Source: Chloroflexota bacterium (GTDB taxonomy: Bacteria > Chloroflexota > Anaerolineae > J102). Taken from it: DNA of 64,000 nucleotides. The position numbers were made by a program, and so were the translations under genes. The notes under the pieces are model-generated. The model was not told the origin of the DNA. It saw nothing but the letters and a program-made list of their open reading frames with translations, and did no database searches. Location: NCBI GenBank assembly GCA_029782215.1, contig JAKOVD010000073.1, forward strand, positions 1 to 64,000, given 5' to 3'. Positions 55,176 to 63,860 of this stretch are shown here, one piece after another; within the stretch, counting starts at the first letter, position 1; the number at the start of each line of letters is the position of its first letter.

Positions 55176-56654
55176 GTGCGCATGGCGGCCGTGGCGGGGG
55201 CTGTCGCCCTGGTCATCGCCGGCTGGTGGTTCGTGCGCAACCAGTTAGTCTACGGCGAACCCACAAGCATGGAGCGCCAGATGCAGGTCTGGGGCATCCG
55301 TCCCAATGCGCCGGACGTGCGGGCGGCGGCGCGGGAGCTGGGCTTCCTGCGCGATTCCTTCTGGGGCATCTTCGGCTATGGCCAGATCCCCCTGCCTCGC
55401 TGGCTTTACACGTTTTTCTGGCTGCTGGTGCTGGCAGGCGCCGCCGGATTGGTGAGCTGGCTGCTGCAGGCGCGGCGCCGCGGCGTTCTCGGACGCTCGC
55501 GCGCCTGGCTGCTGTTGGCGCTGGCAGCGGCGCCGGCGGCCGGCTTTGCCGCTACCTTCGCGCGCATGACGGTCAGCGCCACCGCCGACTTTGGCCGTTA
55601 CCTGTTTCTGAGCTATGCCGTGCTGGCGCCGCTCCTGAGCGTGGGCCTGACGGGGTGGCTGCCGGGCCGGTGGCGCCGGCCCGCCACGGGCGCCCTGCTG
55701 GTCTTCCTGCTGGGCGCGGCCGTGGGCGCGCTGGTGGGGGTGCTGCGGCCGGCCTACGCGCCGCCGCCGATCCATGCCAGCGCCGATGGGCTGGCCATCC
55801 AGCACCGTCTCGATGCGGAATACCTCGGCGCCGGCAAGCTGCTGGGCTACTCGCTCGACCCGCCATCGGCAACGCCGGGAGGGGAGGTAGCGGTCACGCT
55901 CTACTGGCAGGCGACCGGCACACCGAAGGCCAACTACACGGAATTCGTGCAGCTCGTCGGGGATAACAACGTGGTCTGGGGTGGGCGCGACACGCACCCC
56001 GGGCTGGGGCGCTATCCGACCAGGCGCTGGCAGCCGGGCCAGGTCATCGTCGACACCATCCCGGTGCCGATCGCCCTGGCCAGCCAGGTGGCAAGCACGA
56101 CGCCGCTGCCCACCGGCCTGCGGCTGGACATGGGCCTGGCCGAGAACGGCCAGCGCCTGCAGACGAGCGACGGCCGCGACACGGTGACGGCAGGTCCCGT
56201 GCGCCTGGCGCCCAAGACACCGCCAGAACCGCAGGGCGAGCGCGTCCAGTACCGGCTTGGCGATACCGCCGAACTCATTGCGGTCCAGGCTCCGGCCGGG
56301 GCAGCGGCGCCGGGCGCCACGCTGCCCTTTGCGCTGACCTGGCAGAGCCTCAAGCCAGCGGACGATGATTATGTCGTGTTTATCCACGTGCTCGACGGCG
56401 CGGGCAAACTGGCGGCGCAGTTCGACAGTCCGCCCCAGGACGGGCGCTACCCCACCCGCCTTTGGCAACCTGGCGATGTGGTGATCGATGCCCGCCAGGT
56501 GCCGCTGCCGGCCGATCTCCCGGCCGGCGAGTACAAAGTGGTGGGCGGATGGTACCGCCGCGACACGGGAGAGCGCTTGCCGGTCACGGATGCCTCCGGC
56601 CAGCCTCTGCCGGATGCCTCGGCGCCGCTGTTCAGCTTCACGGCCGGCGGCTGA
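55176..56654 (+). CDS. DUF2142-like membrane glycosyltransferase, C-terminal part
   Basis: A 492-residue continuation of the gene at 54408 after an in-frame TGA. The first 200 residues have five more spans (VAGAVALVIAGWWFVRNQLVYGE, WLYTFFWLLVLAGAAGLVSWL, and others). From about residue 210, two beta-rich domains (LLGYSLDPPSATPGGEVAVTLYWQATG and a second with DDYVVFIHVLDGAGKLAAQFD) have the GGEVxVTLYW type common at the C-terminus of these Chloroflexota proteins. The part is probably non-functional alone unless translation continues through or restarts at 55176. Confidence 0.75.
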   Translation: MRMAAVAGAVALVIAGWWFVRNQLVYGEPTSMERQMQVWGIRPNAPDVRAAARELGFLRDSFWGIFGYGQIPLPRWLYTFFWLLVLAGAAGLVSWLLQARRRGVLGRSRAWLLLALAAAPAAGFAATFARMTVSATADFGRYLFLSYAVLAPLLSVGLTGWLPGRWRRPATGALLVFLLGAAVGALVGVLRPAYAPPPIHASADGLAIQHRLDAEYLGAGKLLGYSLDPPSATPGGEVAVTLYWQATGTPKANYTEFVQLVGDNNVVWGGRDTHPGLGRYPTRRWQPGQVIVDTIPVPIALASQVASTTPLPTGLRLDMGLAENGQRLQTSDGRDTVTAGPVRLAPKTPPEPQGERVQYRLGDTAELIAVQAPAGAAAPGATLPFALTWQSLKPADDDYVVFIHVLDGAGKLAAQFDSPPQDGRYPTRLWQPGDVVIDARQVPLPADLPAGEYKVVGGWYRRDTGERLPVTDASGQPLPDASAPLFSFTAGG

Positions 56655-56964
56655 CCACCATAGCCCAGACAGCGCGGGGGTGAAGTGATAGCCGTGCCCT
56701 GAAGGGGCCTACCCGTGTGTGTGCGCGGGCTTCGGCGGGTACAGGTTCTTGCGGGTGCACGGGGTGCGCAGAGTGCCGGGGCAGATCTGAGTCAAGAACG
56801 GCCATTCGATCTCAGCCTTGCGGCGGCATCGCCTGAGGGGCATTGCCGCGTCCTTGTTGTAATGTTTTATAAAATTTGACTATTTATGACACTATAAATA
56901 CTATGTGACAGATTTCACCAGCCGCGATGCTGCCGTCTGACGTTTGCAGGAAGGAGTTCTCACC
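56655..56964. other. 310-bp intergenic region ending in a strong promoter
   Basis: The first 190 bp are GC-rich with no gene or clear element. From about 56855 the sequence becomes AT-rich and holds the promoter at 56876-56904. The base change is sharp against the GC-rich surroundings. Confidence 0.6.
56876..56904 (+). promoter_or_regulatory. sigma70-type promoter with embedded inverted repeat
   Basis: TTGACT (56876-56881), a 17-nt spacer and TACTAT (56899-56904) form a near-consensus promoter. The 7-bp arms TATTTAT (56881-56887) and ATAAATA (56894-56900) overlap the -35 end and most of the spacer, so a dimeric regulator bound there would block or alter polymerase binding. It is 60 bp upstream of the regulator gene that opens the sulfur/cytochrome operon. 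Confidence 0.7.
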
Positions 56965-57750
56965 ATGGCCGACCGACTTCTCACCACCCGTGAGCTTGAG
57001 GATTTGCTCCAACTGGACCGCGTGACGATCTACCGCATGGTCAAAGACGGCGAACTGCCGGCGCTGCGCGTGGGCGGGCAGTGGCGCTTCTCCGCCGAGG
57101 CCGTCGATGCCTGGCTCCAGCAACAGCACGACCAGGCGCCTGCCAAAAGGGAACAGCGGCCAAACGCACCGGAGCTAGACGCTCTGCCACTGGTCGACCT
57201 GGTCCCCATCGGCACTCTCCAGGCGATTCAGAACCAGTTTGCCGAGCTCGTGGGGGTGGCGGCGTTCATCACCGACCTGGAGGGGCAGCCGCTGGCGCCA
57301 TGCAGCCGCTGCAGCCGCTTCTGCCAGCTTGTGCACAGCAGGCCAGAGGGAATGGCAGCCTGCCAGGCGTCCTGGAGGTCTATTGCTCACCTGGATGAAG
57401 AGGGCGCCGGGATTCACGTCTGTCACGCTGGCATCAGCTACGCCAGTGCGCCTGTCAGCGTACAAGGACGGCGCTTCGGCCTGGTGACGGCCGGCCAATT
57501 TCTGACCGAACCCCCTGAGCCTGAGGCGTTCCAAGCACGAGCGCTGGCGACGGGCGCTCGCATCGGCGTCTCGGGCGACGATCTCGCCGCAGCGAGGGAT
57601 TCGATCACCATCATCTCGCACGATCACGCCCTGCAGATCACCAATCTCCTGCAAACCATCGCCAATGCCATTTCCAGCATTGGCTATCAGAGCTACCAGG
57701 TTCGACAAACGCTCGCACGTATCGCCGAGCTCACGGCGCAGGCGGGCTAG
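56965..57750 (+). CDS. excisionase-type HTH regulator with PocR sensory domain
   Basis: A 261-residue regulator. Residues 1-55 are a MerR/excisionase-like helix-turn-helix: LLTTRELEDLLQLDRVTIYRMVK and GELPALRVGGQWRF. Residues about 70-235 match the PocR ligand-binding domain, with several Cys (C-x2-C in PCSRCSRFC, then AACQAS, HVCHAGI) that may bind metal or haem or sense redox (inference). AAGGAG lies 8 nt before the start at 56965. It is the first gene of the cytochrome/YedE operon and probably activates or represses it through the inverted repeat in the promoter. Confidence 0.85.
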   Translation: MADRLLTTRELEDLLQLDRVTIYRMVKDGELPALRVGGQWRFSAEAVDAWLQQQHDQAPAKREQRPNAPELDALPLVDLVPIGTLQAIQNQFAELVGVAAFITDLEGQPLAPCSRCSRFCQLVHSRPEGMAACQASWRSIAHLDEEGAGIHVCHAGISYASAPVSVQGRRFGLVTAGQFLTEPPEPEAFQARALATGARIGVSGDDLAAARDSITIISHDHALQITNLLQTIANAISSIGYQSYQVRQTLARIAELTAQAG

Positions 57751-57770
57751 AACTCATCAAGGAGGGACTC

Positions 57771-59261
57771 ATGCGAAAGAAGTTTGTATGGATTCTGGCC
57801 TGGTCCGCTCTTGTGCTCACGCTTGCGGCGTGTGCACCGGCGCCCAGACCGGATGACAAGACGGCAGGCGATGACCCCAAGGCGCACCTGCCGACCCACC
57901 TGATCCACACGGATCACAGCAGCATCATCCAGGGACCCTTCGGTTCCGGGCCGGAGGTCACCCAGGCCTGTCTCAAATGCCACCCGGACGCAGCGAACCA
58001 AGTCATGCACACGACGCATTGGACCTGGGAAGGGCAGCCCGTGACCGTCTCCTGGCGCAGCGAGCCGGTAACCATCGGCAAGAAGAACCAAATCAACAAT
58101 TTTTGCATCAGCGCCCAAGGCAACCAAAAGAAATGCACGAGCTGCCACACCGGCTACGGGTGGGCAGATAACACCTTTGACTTTCAGAATGCAAACAACG
58201 TCGACTGCCTGGCCTGCCATGCCGATGCCGCCATCTACAACAAGGGCGACTACGGTCTTCCGGCGGCCTCGGTCAATCTGCTGGCGGCAGCACGTTCCGT
58301 CAGGGCGCCCACACGCGAGGAATGCGGCAAGTGCCATTTCGATGGCGGCGGCGGCAATGGCGTGAAACACGGTGACCTGGACGAGAGCCTGTATTTCCCG
58401 TCTGAGAACCTGGATGTCCACATGGGCAGGCTCAACTTCCAGTGCACCGACTGCCACCGCACCGAAGAGCATGCCATCCGGGGAAAGCTGCTGGCAGACA
58501 ACTACACCATTGACGCCAAAGACCAGGTCGCCTGTGAGGATTGCCACACCGGCGCCATCCACGCCGATGAACGCCTGAACGAGCACATCAAGACTGTGGC
58601 CTGCCAGACCTGCCATATCCCGGACATGGCGCGCAAGGACCCCACCAAGACCTACTGGGATTGGTCCACCGCCGGCCAGGACAGGACGGAAGACCACTAT
58701 ACCTACCTGAAGATCAAAGGCTCGTTTGTCTACGACGAGAATGTGGCGCCGACCTACGAGTGGTTCAACGGCAACGTCGATTACCGGTACCTGTTGGGGG
58801 ATGCCATTGATCCGGCCAAGCCGACCGACATCGTCAGACCCGCTGGCGACATTCACGATGCCAACGCCAGGATTGCCCCTTTCAAGATCCATGTTGCCAA
58901 CCAACCCTACGACAAGGTCAACCAGATCCTGATTCCGCCGCGCACTGCGGGCGAAAATGGCTTCTGGACGACGTTCGACTGGCCGTCGGCCCTTGCCCTG
59001 GGCGCCCAGGATGCCGGCCTCAAGTTCTCCGGCGACTACGGCTTCACGGAAACGCGCATGGCCTACCCGACGACGCACATGGTGCAGCCCAAGGAAAAGG
59101 CGCTGCAGTGCAGCGATTGCCACAGTGACAACGGACGCCTGGATTGGAAGGCCCTGGGCTACCCCGGCGACCCGATGAAATGGGGCGGGCGCGATACACT
59201 CAAACTCACACCCGCACAGCCCATTGCCGCGGCGCCGTCCCCGGCGGAGGCGATGCCATGA
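57771..59261 (+). CDS. octahaem c-type cytochrome, tetrathionate reductase (OTR) family
   Basis: A 496-residue lipoprotein (lipobox LTLAAC, Cys21). Eight CXXCH haem sites start at C67, C122, C146, C185, C225, C255, C278 and C447. LIHTDHSSIIQGPFGSGPEVTQ and HTTHWTWEG near the N-terminus and GKKNQINNFC are hallmarks of the octahaem tetrathionate reductase family, in which one haem is lysine-ligated and forms the active site (established). The enzyme acts outside the membrane on tetrathionate, nitrite or hydroxylamine in vitro in Shewanella. AGGAGGG lies just before the start. It overlaps the next cytochrome gene start (ATGA), so the pair is coupled. Confidence 0.92.
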   Translation: MRKKFVWILAWSALVLTLAACAPAPRPDDKTAGDDPKAHLPTHLIHTDHSSIIQGPFGSGPEVTQACLKCHPDAANQVMHTTHWTWEGQPVTVSWRSEPVTIGKKNQINNFCISAQGNQKKCTSCHTGYGWADNTFDFQNANNVDCLACHADAAIYNKGDYGLPAASVNLLAAARSVRAPTREECGKCHFDGGGGNGVKHGDLDESLYFPSENLDVHMGRLNFQCTDCHRTEEHAIRGKLLADNYTIDAKDQVACEDCHTGAIHADERLNEHIKTVACQTCHIPDMARKDPTKTYWDWSTAGQDRTEDHYTYLKIKGSFVYDENVAPTYEWFNGNVDYRYLLGDAIDPAKPTDIVRPAGDIHDANARIAPFKIHVANQPYDKVNQILIPPRTAGENGFWTTFDWPSALALGAQDAGLKFSGDYGFTETRMAYPTTHMVQPKEKALQCSDCHSDNGRLDWKALGYPGDPMKWGGRDTLKLTPAQPIAAAPSPAEAMP

Positions 59262-62020
59262 ACACCCGATTGCGCAAACTGACGGCCGCTCTGCCGTCGC
59301 GGCGTCTGCGCCTGATCACGGGCGCCGCGCTTCTGTTGGTGCTTGGTCTCGGCGCCTGGACGGTCGCGGGCGTTGCCGCTCGCGGCGCCGCAGCACCGGT
59401 GCACAACGCCTCGCCGATCCATCCCAACTTTCCCCTCCTTGATGCCAGCGGCGCCAACGTCCTGACCAGCGGCAAGGCGGCGTCGACTGACAAGACGTGC
59501 GGCGCCTGCCACGACACGGCGTTCATCCAATCACATGCCTTTCATGCCGACCTGGGTCTGAGCGACATGACGACCGCCGGCAAGGCCGCCTCGGGCACGC
59601 CGTGGGATACCTCCGATGGCCTCTTCGGCAAGTTCGACCCCCTCGCCAACCGCTATCTGACGCAGGCGGGAGATGAACGACTGGACCTGTCGACCGCCGA
59701 ATGGCTCAAGCTGGTGGGAGGTCGCGTCGCCGGCGGCGGCCCGGCCACGACCTCGCGCAGCGGTGGCCCGCTGACCGGCGCCGCTGCCGGCGGCCCGGAA
59801 GCCGCCATCCTCGACCCGGCGACCGGCCAGCCCAGGGCATGGGACTGGAGCCAATCCGGCGTCATGGAGATGAACTGCTTCCTGTGCCACACGGCGAATC
59901 CTAACAACGGCGCCCGCATCGAAGCACTGCAGGCGGGTCGTTTCGGCGATGCCGTGACCGCCACCCTGGCCGGCACCGGACTCGTGACCATGTCCGGCAC
60001 GGGCTGGATTTGGAATCCCGCGGCCTTTGACGCCAACGGGGAGGTCAAAGCCGACTTCGTTCAGATCCAGGATCCGACCAATGAGAACTGCGCCCAGTGC
60101 CACGGCGTGGTGCACACGGATTCCTCGCCGCTGACCCTGGCGGCGTGCGATCTCAGCCAGCCACAGACAGCGACGACAGGCCAGGTCATTGCCGCCCAAA
60201 AGATCAGTGATTCCGGCCTCAACCTGGCCGACAAAGACAAACTTGCCTATGCCTGGGATGTCCACGCGGAACGCGGGCTGAAGTGCACCGATTGCCACTA
60301 CTCCCTCAACAACCCCGTGCACTACCAGGAAGCGCAGGAGAACAAGCCCAGCCATCTGACGTATGACCCGCGGCGCCTGGACATCGGGGACTACATCAAG
60401 CAGCCCAACCACAACCTGGCACGCGGCCAGAGCGCCCAGTACGACGTGGCGCCTGAGGGCAAGGCGACGATGCGTCGCTGCGAGTCGTGCCATGACGCGG
60501 TGAAGACCCATGCCAACTGGCTGCCCTACACCGAGAGGCACATGCAGGAAGTGGCCTGCGAGACTTGCCACATTCCGCAGCTCCACGCACCGGCCATTCA
60601 GTCCTATGACTGGACGGTGATCAAGCCCAACGGCGCGCCAGTCAGCGAGTGTCGCGGCATTGAGGGACAGAATACCGTCACGGACCTGGTGACGGGGTAC
60701 CGGCCCGTCCTGATGCGGCGCGCCAATGTCGACGGCAGGAGCATGTTGGCGCCGTACAACCTGATCAGCTCCTGGTTCTGGATCTATGACGATGCCAATG
60801 GCAACGTTCGCCCTGTCCGGCAGATCGACCTCCAGGCAGCCTATCTGGAGGGTGGCAGCTATCGTCCCGCCATCGTGGCCGCCTTTGACGCCGATGGCGA
60901 CGGCGCCATTAGCGACGCCGAGCTGACGATCGACTCGGATGCCAAGAAGGCAGCGGTCGCGGCCCAATTGGCGGCGCTGGGCCTGCACAACCCGCGCATC
61001 GACGGTCAGGTGCAGCCGTACAGCATCAATCATGACGTGGTGCGCGGTGACGCCGCCCTGCGGGACTGCCAGGCATGCCACAGCGACGGCTCGAACATCG
61101 CCGCCCCCCTCCAACTGTCGGGCCACATACCCGCCGGCGTGCTGCCCGCATTCGTCAAGAACGTCAATGTCGCCGCAAGCGGCGACGTGACGCGCAGCGG
61201 CGGCTCGCTCCTCTACCAGCCCGAACCCGAACGGGACGGCCTGTACGTCTTTGGCCACAATCACGTTTCCTGGCTGGACTGGCTGGGGGCGCTGGTTTTC
61301 GCCGGCACGCTGCTCGCCATCCTTGCTCACGGGACGCTGCGCTATCTGTCGTCGCTGCGCCAACCCAGGCCCACCCTGGCGACGAAACGCGTCTACATGT
61401 ACGACCGCTACGAGCGCTTCTGGCACTGGCTGCAAACGTTGACCATCATCCTGCTGCTCTTCACCGGCCTGATCATCCACCGGCCGGATATGTTCGGCGC
61501 CTTCGCCTTCCGCCACGTGGTCACGCTGCACAACGCCCTGGCCATCATCCTGGTTGCCAATGCCGGACTGGCGCTCTTCTGGCACCTGACGAGCGGGCAG
61601 ATCCGCCAGTTCATCCCCCGGCCCTACGGCTTCTTCGACCAGGCGATCGGTCAGGCCAAGTACTACCTGGAGGGAGTTTTCAAGGGCAAGCCGCATCCCT
61701 TCGACAAAACGTATAAGAAGAAGCTCAACCCCCTGCAGCAGGTCACCTATTTCGGTCTGCTCAACGTCCTGCTGCCGCTGCAAATCCTGACCGGGGCCGT
61801 CATGTGGGGCGTGCAGCAGTGGCCACAGGTGGCCCGCATGATGGGAGGGCTGCCGCTGCTGGCGCCGTTCCACACCATGGTGGCCTGGCTGCTTGCCACC
61901 TTCGTGGTGGCGCATGTCTACCTGACCACCACCGGCGCGACCGTGGGCGAAGACATCAGCGCGATGGTCACGGGCTGGGAAAACGTCCCCGTCCACGCCG
62001 CCGAGCCGGCCGGGGACTAA
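59258..62020 (+). CDS. heptahaem cytochrome c fused to cytochrome b membrane domain
   Basis: A 920-residue protein. An N-terminal anchor (about 18-42) leads to an outside-facing region with seven CXXCH sites at C81, C207, C278, C343, C408, C434 and C604. Near residue 545, DADGDGAISDAEL looks like an EF-hand/dockerin Ca-binding loop. From about residue 665, five membrane spans follow: LDWLGALVFAGTLLAILAHG, then a cytochrome b556-like unit with YERFWHWLQTLTIILLLFTG, HNALAIILVANAGLALFWH and APFHTMVAWLL; conserved His residues can bind two b haems. The protein may pass electrons between the quinone pool and the octahaem partner (inference). Confidence 0.9.
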   Translation: MNTRLRKLTAALPSRRLRLITGAALLLVLGLGAWTVAGVAARGAAAPVHNASPIHPNFPLLDASGANVLTSGKAASTDKTCGACHDTAFIQSHAFHADLGLSDMTTAGKAASGTPWDTSDGLFGKFDPLANRYLTQAGDERLDLSTAEWLKLVGGRVAGGGPATTSRSGGPLTGAAAGGPEAAILDPATGQPRAWDWSQSGVMEMNCFLCHTANPNNGARIEALQAGRFGDAVTATLAGTGLVTMSGTGWIWNPAAFDANGEVKADFVQIQDPTNENCAQCHGVVHTDSSPLTLAACDLSQPQTATTGQVIAAQKISDSGLNLADKDKLAYAWDVHAERGLKCTDCHYSLNNPVHYQEAQENKPSHLTYDPRRLDIGDYIKQPNHNLARGQSAQYDVAPEGKATMRRCESCHDAVKTHANWLPYTERHMQEVACETCHIPQLHAPAIQSYDWTVIKPNGAPVSECRGIEGQNTVTDLVTGYRPVLMRRANVDGRSMLAPYNLISSWFWIYDDANGNVRPVRQIDLQAAYLEGGSYRPAIVAAFDADGDGAISDAELTIDSDAKKAAVAAQLAALGLHNPRIDGQVQPYSINHDVVRGDAALRDCQACHSDGSNIAAPLQLSGHIPAGVLPAFVKNVNVAASGDVTRSGGSLLYQPEPERDGLYVFGHNHVSWLDWLGALVFAGTLLAILAHGTLRYLSSLRQPRPTLATKRVYMYDRYERFWHWLQTLTIILLLFTGLIIHRPDMFGAFAFRHVVTLHNALAIILVANAGLALFWHLTSGQIRQFIPRPYGFFDQAIGQAKYYLEGVFKGKPHPFDKTYKKKLNPLQQVTYFGLLNVLLPLQILTGAVMWGVQQWPQVARMMGGLPLLAPFHTMVAWLLATFVVAHVYLTTTGATVGEDISAMVTGWENVPVHAAEPAGD

Positions 62021-62047
62021 CCACAACACACAAGGAAACGTGAAGCA

Positions 62048-62614
62048 ATGACGACAACGATGGATGTGCCAAACAAGACCTGGAAAACGCGCCTCTTCGA
62101 CCGCCCGAAGCGAGACTACATTCACCCCTACCTGGGGGGGCTGCTCCTGGGCCTGGTGCTGTTCGCCGCCTTCTTCCTGACCGGCAACGGACTGGGAGCG
62201 TCAGGCGGCTTGAACCGGATCGTCGTCTTCGTGGAGGACCTCATCGCCCCAGCCCACGTGGACCGCATTCCCTACCTCATCAAGCTGGCTGGCGGCGACA
62301 AGAACCCACTGGACGACTGGGTCGTGCCGCTCGTCTTTGGAACCATCCTGGGCGGCTTCGTCTCCGGTTGGCGCAACGGCCGGCTGCAGGTTGAGACCAA
62401 CAAAGGGCCAAACATCTCCGTGCGCACCCGGTGGCTGATGGCCTTCATCGGCGGCGCCATCATGGGCTACGGCGCCCGTATGGCCCGCGGGTGCACCTCG
62501 GGTCAGGCCTTGTCCGGGGGCGCCGTTCTCTCGGTCGGCTCCTGGGCGTTCATGTTCGCCGTGTTCGGCGGCGCTTATGCGCTCGCCTACTTCGTGCGGC
62601 GGCTCTGGAATTAG
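62048..62614 (+). CDS. YeeE/YedE (TsuA-like) transporter, first half
   Basis: A 188-residue membrane protein with about four spans, beginning after a cytoplasmic N-terminus ending in RPKRDYIHPYLGG. The hallmark RMARGCTSGQALSGGAVLS near residue 145 matches the thiosulfate-channel motif, with its Cys. TsuA itself is one polypeptide holding two such halves (established for the family); here the two halves are separate genes. It starts 27 nt after the cytochrome gene, with AAGGAAA upstream, and is followed 10 nt later by the second half. Confidence 0.88.
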   Translation: MTTTMDVPNKTWKTRLFDRPKRDYIHPYLGGLLLGLVLFAAFFLTGNGLGASGGLNRIVVFVEDLIAPAHVDRIPYLIKLAGGDKNPLDDWVVPLVFGTILGGFVSGWRNGRLQVETNKGPNISVRTRWLMAFIGGAIMGYGARMARGCTSGQALSGGAVLSVGSWAFMFAVFGGAYALAYFVRRLWN

Positions 62615-62624
62615 GAGGGTGACC

Positions 62625-63860
62625 ATGATGTTCCCACTTCAGCTCGAAACCCTCGTAGGCAAGCCCCTGATGTTCGTGGTCTTTGGCCTGATCGGGTTTG
62701 CGTTTGGCTTCGTCCTGGAAAGCTCCGGCTTTGGCAACTCTACCAAGCTGGCAGCCCAGTTCTACTTCAAGGACATGACCGTGCTGAAAGTAATGTTCGG
62801 GGCTATCATCACGGCGATGGTGCTGCTGTTCATCACCGTGGGCCTGGGCATCCTCGACTTCAGCCTGGTCTGGGTCAACCCCACCTACCTGGCCTCCGGC
62901 ATCGCCGGCGGCTTGATCATGGGCGTGGGCTTCATCATCGGCGGCTTCTGTCCCGGCACCTCCCTGGTGGCGATGGCGACGCGCAAGATCGATGGGCTCT
63001 TCTTCGTGCTCGGCGTCCTCTTCGGCATTCTCGTTTTCGGGGAGACCGAGCGCTTCTATGACCTCTGGTGGAACAACGCCGGTTACCTTGGGCGCCTGAC
63101 GATTCCCGAATGGCTTGGCTTGCCCACCGGCGTCGTAGTCGTCGGCATCGTCTTGATGGCCCTGTTCATGTTCTGGGGGGCGGAACAGCTCGAGCACATC
63201 TTTGGCGGTCGCGACCTCAGCAAAGAACCGCGCTGGCGGCGCTACCTCGCCGTCGGCATCGTCACCTTCGCGGCCAGCATCATCCTGATCGGCATGCCGA
63301 CGACGCAGCAGAAATACGCCCGGGTCGCCGCCGTCAAAGACGCAGCCCTGGCGCACCGTGACGTGCAGATCCAGCCCGGCGAGCTGCTTGCCACCATCGG
63401 CGATGACACCCTGAAGCTCACCATGCTCGACGTGCGGCCGGAGGCCGACTTCAACCAGTTCCACATCGCCGGCTCGCAGAACGTCCCGCTCGCCCAGATT
63501 CATGAGGTTGTCCCGGAGCTGCAAACCCAACAGCTCCCCAATGCCGTCATCGTGCTTGTCGGCAACGATGAGAAGGCGGCAACCGAAGCCTGGAAGACCC
63601 TGACGGCCGAGAGCGTTTCCAATACCTACATCCTCGAGGGAGGCATCAACGAATGGATTGCCACCTTTGGGAAAGAGGAGAATGACATCGTCAAGGTCGC
63701 TTCGCCCTCCGGCGACGACACGCTCTGCTTCACGTTCCCGGCAGCCCTCGGCGACCGCTTTGCGGCGGCCGATCCTTCGCCGCATGAGTGGCAATTGGAC
63801 TACACGCCCAAGATCAAGCTGCAGGTCAAGCGCGACCACGGCGGTGGCGGCTGCGGATAA
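62625..63860 (+). CDS. YeeE/YedE transporter, second half, with rhodanese-like domain and Cys tail
   Basis: A 411-residue protein. Spans 1-5 (about residues 10-195) include the second YedE motif GGFCPGTSLVAMATRKIDG. A further span (about 208-228) leads to a rhodanese-like domain (about 245-350; LDVRPEADFNQFHIAGSQNVPL). Its active-site loop reads VIVLVGNDEKAA and has no Cys, so it cannot form a persulfide there. The last residues are DHGGGGCG, a flexible Gly tail with a Cys next to the end. AGGAGG is 6 nt before the start at 62625. The tail may serve as a sulfur-accepting arm (inference). Confidence 0.88.
   Translation: MMFPLQLETLVGKPLMFVVFGLIGFAFGFVLESSGFGNSTKLAAQFYFKDMTVLKVMFGAIITAMVLLFITVGLGILDFSLVWVNPTYLASGIAGGLIMGVGFIIGGFCPGTSLVAMATRKIDGLFFVLGVLFGILVFGETERFYDLWWNNAGYLGRLTIPEWLGLPTGVVVVGIVLMALFMFWGAEQLEHIFGGRDLSKEPRWRRYLAVGIVTFAASIILIGMPTTQQKYARVAAVKDAALAHRDVQIQPGELLATIGDDTLKLTMLDVRPEADFNQFHIAGSQNVPLAQIHEVVPELQTQQLPNAVIVLVGNDEKAATEAWKTLTAESVSNTYILEGGINEWIATFGKEENDIVKVASPSGDDTLCFTFPAALGDRFAAADPSPHEWQLDYTPKIKLQVKRDHGGGGCG

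Follow-up and report, generated by a model that had tools for sequence, protein, structure and literature searches.

A conserved cassette of an octahaem OTR lipoprotein, a haem c-cytochrome b fusion, and a split YeeE/YedE transporter that ends in a Gly-Cys arm

The window analyzed here is a stretch of 64,000 nucleotides from a Chloroflexota bacterium of the Anaerolineae (contig JAKOVD010000073.1), and it carries, within positions 56965–63860, five genes (g1–g5) that all lie on the + strand with intergenic gaps of 20, −4, 27, and 10 bp. An initial annotation had read these five co-directional, tightly spaced genes as a candidate module for respiration with sulfur oxyanions, and all five open reading frames (ORFs) are present with the close spacing it described. 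We find that the conserved core is the set g2–g5, i.e., an octahaem OTR lipoprotein, a cytochrome b fused to c-type haems, and a split YedE transporter with a Gly-Cys arm at its end. The parts are known, and their combination is a conserved cassette that we did not find described in open-licence papers, including those that combine an octaheme with YeeE/YedE. Judging from sequence, we propose that g2–g5 may form a quinone-linked extracytoplasmic sulfur oxidoreductase with its own SoxY-like arm and importer, which would assign a role to OTR where that role is otherwise termed cryptic; we give this proposal roughly even chances. The genes and the features on which the argument depends are as follows.

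56965–57750, + strand: g1, transcriptional regulator with an HTH_17 (excisionase-type) and a PocR sensory domain; a lineage-specific partner, not core
57771–59261, + strand: g2, OTR-family lipoprotein with 8 CXXCH, 20 bp after g1
58104–58106, + strand: Cys112 of g2, outside the haem motifs, equivalent to Cys64 of 1SP3
58365–58367, + strand: Lys199 of g2, by alignment Lys153 of Shewanella OTR, the distal ligand of catalytic haem 2
59258–62020, + strand: g3, heptahaem c domain fused to a di-haem cytochrome b, overlapping g2 by 4 bp
59498–61081, + strand: heptahaem domain of g3 (residues 81–608), a distant relative of OTR/MmcA
61400–61975, + strand: cytochrome b561/FdnI-like quinone-facing domain of g3, with invariant His723, 758, 872, and 886
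62048–62614, + strand: g4, C-terminal half of a YeeE/YedE transporter, 27 bp after g3
62492–62494, + strand: pore Cys149 of g4, conserved in 78/79
62625–63860, + strand: g5, YeeE/YedE N-terminal half, transmembrane helix, rhodanese-like domain, and Gly-Cys tail, 10 bp after g4
63375–63662, + strand: rhodanese-like domain of g5, residues 251–346 (PF00581, E 5e-14, 53 bits vs 22.2)
63828–63857, + strand: C-terminal arm of g5, residues 402–411, ending RDHGGGGCG, with Cys410 at 63852–63854

When g3 was used to search named genome contigs, 80 loci were found, and the order g2-g3-g4-g5 is the same in the large majority of them. Most of the sequences compared are metagenome-assembled genomes. The order was found in Parasulfuritortus cantonensis, Thiobacillus, Gallionellaceae, Acidimicrobiia, and a deltaproteobacterium, and the four-gene cassette spans Chloroflexota, Betaproteobacteria, Acidimicrobiia, Desulfobacterota/Myxococcota, and Bacteroidota. 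Because this order recurs in dozens of independent loci, we conclude that the grouping is not due to chance. Among 61 relatives of the window genome, strong matches to OTR, g3, and g5 (16, 15, and 14, respectively) are found together, at the same spots in the same genomes, and the differences between these counts coincide with contig ends. The initial annotation had named separate occurrence of the genes in close relatives as a reason to give up the module; what we observe is that the g2–g5 core stays together while the regulator separates from it. Further OTR loci were picked by the OTR profile alone and are therefore not biased toward g3. In these, the split YedE and rhodanese pair stands beside OTR in Desulfobacterota and Bacteroidota as well, where the cytochrome b may be a separate protein of ~210 aa, and five loci with OTR and split YedE (L252, L255–L257, and L287) have a protein with 8–9 haem motifs in place of g3. 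In 274 genomes of the pseudomonadotal class, 23 have an OTR above the cut-off, nearly all as OTR with a small cytochrome b, and the four-gene cassette was seen only in Parasulfuritortus. Parasulfuritortus carries OTRs of both types in one genome, one in the four-gene cassette and one in a locus with a small cytochrome b and a redoxin (L185, L186). Many Anaerolineales cassettes adjoin the SUF genes SufC, SufD, SufS, and FeS_assembly_P (L028, L031–L034, L036, L037, L048, L054, L057, and others), a neighborhood that may be functional or may reflect shared ancestry.

The rhodanese domain of g5 and its Gly-Gly-Gly-Cys-Gly C-terminus had gone unmentioned in the initial annotation, and together with the invariance of the tail they shift the model from an importer plus reductase to a redox enzyme plus carrier arm plus importer. 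The rhodanese domain is modeled by AlphaFold with high confidence, its fold matches rhodaneses (VIA Z 13.3, root-mean-square deviation 1.8, 102 aligned), and a PDB search with the g5 profile returned rhodaneses and rhodanese-like domains only. In all g5 homologue sets examined, the rhodanese catalytic loop has no conserved Cys; the tail thiol therefore cannot be explained as a mere backup for an ordinary rhodanese cycle. By comparison, 93/93 unique g5 homologues that are not truncated, drawn from Chloroflexota, Pseudomonadota, Actinomycetota, Desulfobacterota/Myxococcota, and Bacteroidota, have Cys in the final or penultimate position; the tail reads GGCG in 79 of them, and GGC, GGCS, GGCT, GLCG, and GLCS also occur. 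The last ten residues of g5 are disordered in the AlphaFold model, with a predicted local distance difference test score (pLDDT) of about 30. Lys and Arg counts in the g5 loops (47 sequences) are 8.0 on one side of the membrane and 1.1 on the other, and this positive-inside trend places the N-terminus, the rhodanese domain, and the tail on the outer side of the membrane, where the haems are as well. In SoxY, the cysteine of the GGCGG end is an established sulfur-binding site (PMC6067878). The always-conserved terminal Cys of g5 suggests that the OTR enzyme acts on sulfur held on a flexible arm.

Gly-Cys ends are found on other neighbors of OTR as well. Five pseudomonadotal loci have, as the immediate upstream neighbor of OTR, a gene for a DUF302 protein that carries a membrane or signal segment at its N-terminus and has a Gly-rich end (...GGGGAGGNDIGGC and similar).

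L162, L166, L167, L169, L172 (e.g., L167:774–1319): tailed DUF302 loci, Gly-rich C-terminus ending in Cys, upstream of OTR

The Gly-Cys end is present in 5/5 of these OTR-adjacent DUF302 proteins vs 0/28 of the other DUF302 proteins in the same twelve genomes. A redoxin/TlpA-like gene lies downstream in four of the five DUF302-OTR loci and was not seen in L172. A Bacteroidales cassette (L094:2739–6526) encodes two rhodaneses and a YedE-rhodanese half, and all three end in GGC. When 1246 neighbor ORFs of at least 150 aa were searched, 28 had GG(L)C ends, every one of them a cassette protein, and near OTRs that lack both YedE and DUF302 we found such tails only on spurious ORFs and on one or two unconvincing proteins. 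A published survey reports a divergent soxY with soxZ adjoining otr in lucinid symbionts (PMC11237559). In an OTR tree made by a quick method, with weak deep root branches, YedE-linked OTRs lie on both main arms and DUF302-linked OTRs form one small clade in the second arm. From this scatter, the tailed partners look like repeated answers to a single need. We put forward, tentatively and with less than even confidence, that the substrate of OTRs at large is sulfur attached to a partner protein through a C-terminal Gly-Gly-Cys arm and that the window cassette is a redox-coupled sulfur importer. If so, one transporter half would be a swinging-arm carrier that arose in parallel to Sox, and such carriers would come in at least four unrelated architectures (YedE-rhodanese, DUF302, free rhodanese, and SoxYZ).

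The redox components agree with their earlier description as an octahaem OTR-like lipoprotein and a haem c-cytochrome b fusion, with 15 c-type haems between them from 8 CXXCH motifs in g2 and 7 in g3. The g2 protein scores 570.5 bits against TIGR04315 (OTR), where the cut-off is 375, has a lipobox LAAC at Cys21, and is 48% identical over the mature protein to Shewanella oneidensis OTR (SO4144, PDB 1SP3). The haem-2 Lys is kept in 152/152 aligned OTRs, and Cys112 is invariant in 151/151 ungapped OTR rows and may be a partner for thiol chemistry. In g3, the b561 cytochrome b domain (PF01292, residues 715–906) matches the structure of FdnI (1kqf_C) with VIA Z 13.6 and a root-mean-square deviation of 4.9 over 187 aligned positions, and the spacing of its four invariant histidines is one that we take to resemble that of the FdnI ligands. 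It scores 134.6 against the PhsC equivalog NF011582 (thiosulfate reductase cytochrome B), below the cut-off of 204. The haem region of g3 matches the OTR profile over residues ~193–454 with a probability of 98.3 (E 2e-14) and TIGR04314 in part (32.8 against a cut-off of 250). Since a Foldseek search with the g3 model matched only the cytochrome b part and the haem part is poorly modeled, the kinship of this region to OTR rests on profiles. By homology of the cytochrome b and heptahaem regions, electrons could pass between quinone and the OTR haems, and we infer that g3 provides this link.

The split YedE transporter noted at the start is present as two PF04143 halves, with the order corrected such that g4 is the C-terminal half (94.5 bits, profile positions 158–309) and g5 begins with the N-terminal half (49.4 bits, positions 4–188), the cut-off being 27. 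By motif, g5 Cys109, which is conserved in 61/61, and g4 Cys149 were equated with Cys91 and Cys293 of TsuA, whose roles as pore cysteines have been described (PMC11582611). Foldseek with the g5 model matched the rhodanese domain alone and no YeeE structure; the transporter part is modeled at low confidence, and its assignment therefore rests on Pfam.

The g1 protein has an HTH_17 domain (PF12728, E 2e-16) and a PocR domain (PF10114, E 1e-36), and it scores 40.8 against the PocR equivalog NF047788 (cut-off 500), with which it shares only the sensory domain. A PocR gene lies upstream of the cassette in the same direction only in the window genome (G000), L026, G002/L111, and G005/L113, and is divergent in G010 and G012. 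The loci elsewhere have an ArsR repressor upstream of the cassette (38 loci, e.g., L030:6032–6376) and a divergently oriented XRE-cupin regulator; the one invariant Cys of the ArsR protein is a candidate sensor of redox state or sulfur. We considered PocR as a core member and rejected it, as most loci carry the ArsR and XRE-cupin regulators in its place; thus, the PocR gene is an exchangeable regulator, and the initial view of it as part of the combination is not supported. Close PocR-helix-turn-helix (HTH) paralogues in the class adjoin DsrE2, DsrC, TusA with a lipoyl H-protein-like gene, a pyridine-nucleotide-disulphide oxidoreductase, or a GlcD-CCG oxidase, and of the window genome's own paralogues one adjoins TusA (L319) and one is near DsrE2-DsrC (L327). 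These settings suggest that PocR-HTH is a sulfur-responsive regulator family, with a sulfur-related signal supported, not proven. At L319, L320, L325, L326, and L327, PocR-HTH regulators stand beside TusA/lipoyl H-protein-like gene, DsrE2, DsrC, or pyridine-nucleotide-disulphide oxidoreductase. The five-gene unit is bounded by an unrelated upstream gene that ends at 56654 and by ~400 bp of space before the start of a downstream gene for a solute-binding lipoprotein. Promoter-like sites, which are consensus matches only, occur upstream of g1 (56876–56904) and of the next downstream gene; no terminator-like site was found after g5, and Rfam and tRNA scans of the window gave no matches.

In the mechanism that we propose, Cys410 at the end of the GGGCG arm would bind a sulfur moiety (thiosulfate or sulfane sulfur), much as SoxY does with its GGCGG arm. 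Two sites would be reached by the arm of g5: the haem-2 pocket of OTR with its Lys ligand, where redox chemistry would take place, and the entrance of the split YedE pore, at g5 Cys109 and g4 Cys149, where the sulfur would be passed inward. Electrons would move between menaquinone and OTR by way of the di-haem cytochrome b and the heptahaem domain. In the reductive direction that we favor, tetrathionate or a similar S-S compound would react with the arm thiol, quinol-derived electrons would cleave the arm adduct, and the freed sulfur unit would be imported. The sulfur-oxyanion reading put forward initially is partly borne out: the genes do make up an operon-like module, and the family and partner evidence points to sulfur, with tetrathionate, thiosulfate, and nitrite all candidate substrates.

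Several points weigh against the arm-carrying sulfur oxidoreductase. The YedE halves lie far under the cut-offs of the thiosulfate-transporter (TsuA) equivalogs (g4 gives 39 vs 400 for NF052577 and 32 vs 645 bits for NF041049, with no match listed for g5). Many OTRs, those at loci with a ~200 aa cytochrome b (46 of 152 before allowing for truncated contigs), have no Gly-Cys-tailed neighbor, so the carrier arm is either not universal or encoded elsewhere. Shewanella OTR reduces nitrite and hydroxylamine too, in vitro (PMC4484225). The direction is not fixed by sequence, since SoxY, which points to sulfur oxidizers, is present in 5/5 of the pseudomonadotal carriers that were tested and dsrA in 3/5. 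These carriers, which include Parasulfuritortus, Thiobacillus, and Gallionellaceae, are Sox bacteria, and it is above all for them that an oxidative version may apply, where OTR would oxidize arm-bound sulfur in a SoxCD-like six-electron or SoxXA-like two-electron step, the electrons would enter the quinone pool, and YedE would import the remaining sulfur. A gene for sulfide dehydrogenase (FccB) adjoins the Thiobacillus cassette, and SoxY adjoins otr in sulfur-oxidizing symbionts in the survey cited above. We nevertheless judge the oxidative version unlikely, as dsrA was not found in the window genome or the other Chloroflexota carriers tested and SoxY was not found in the genome of L026, a cassette-bearing Chloroflexota. 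Menaquinone has a potential of −75 mV. The tetrathionate/thiosulfate couple, at +198 mV (PMC8528874), is too high to reduce menaquinone and readily accepts electrons from quinol. In the one case in which expression responded to a substrate, that substrate was tetrathionate as an acceptor, which induced an otr of Acidobacteriota 36-fold in sediment microcosms (PMC8528874). For these reasons we favor reduction of the tetrathionate type over oxidation.

The Gly-Gly-Cys end might instead be a docking or sorting peptide or a metal or haem binder, in which case the module would amount to a simple tetrathionate reductase alongside a standard thiosulfate importer. Conservation by itself is no proof of sulfur loading, and the OTR and YedE families already suggest tetrathionate reduction followed by thiosulfate uptake. 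We consider this quite improbable, however: as in SoxY, the one residue that is always required is a thiol at the extreme end, the tail Cys is followed by neither a membrane helix nor a sortase-like signal, and three types of tailed partner have rhodanese or SoxY domains, which are associated with sulfur transfer. The activities of Shewanella OTR with nitrite and hydroxylamine would fit a nitrogen-oxide module, with OTR as the reductase fed by cytochrome b and the YedE-rhodanese proteins serving a separate sulfur function in the same operon. The nature of the OTR partners makes this very unlikely: the tailed split YedE-rhodanese accompanies OTR in at least five phyla and on each of the two main arms of the OTR tree, DUF302 tails arise beside OTR too, and the regulators and neighbors are sulfur-related.

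If OTR partners do carry sulfur on Gly-Cys arms, the natural OTR substrate would be protein-bound, which would explain the broad in-vitro activity of OTR and would change the reading of otr in sulfur-cycle surveys. The transporter half would then be its own substrate carrier and would couple sulfur uptake to respiration, through a cassette that widespread Anaerolineae carry.

Compared with known systems, g5 shares with SoxYZ, as a sequence feature only, a flexible C-terminal Gly-Gly-Cys-Gly arm outside the cytoplasm (GGGCG at the end of g5, GGCGG at the end of SoxY), but it has no match to the SoxY domain PF13501 and lacks the SoxY fold, the arm extending instead from a rhodanese-like domain that is joined to one half of a transporter. 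With TsuA/YeeE and the split PmpAB, the transporter shares the PF04143 halves, the two pore cysteines, and the division into N-half and C-half proteins like PmpB and PmpA; it differs in the extra transmembrane helix of g5, which flips the C-terminus outward and adds the rhodanese and tail, and in having no TsuB/YeeD gene in the cassette operon. The g3 protein has seven haems in an OTR-related haem region, like the MmcA heptahaem cytochrome of Methanosarcina, whereas it matches TIGR04314 only partly and is fused to cytochrome b. That cytochrome b has the b561 fold and four invariant candidate haem-ligand histidines in common with the PhsC/FdnI type, yet it lies under the PhsC equivalog cut-off and is fused to seven c haems. 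Finally, g2 and Shewanella OTR have the same 8 CXXCH, the Lys ligand of haem 2, and the invariant Cys64, but the Shewanella enzyme is periplasmic and was studied with the small tetrahaem cytochrome STC, whereas g2 is a lipoprotein whose gene stands together with those for a cytochrome b of its own, a split YedE, and a carrier-like arm.

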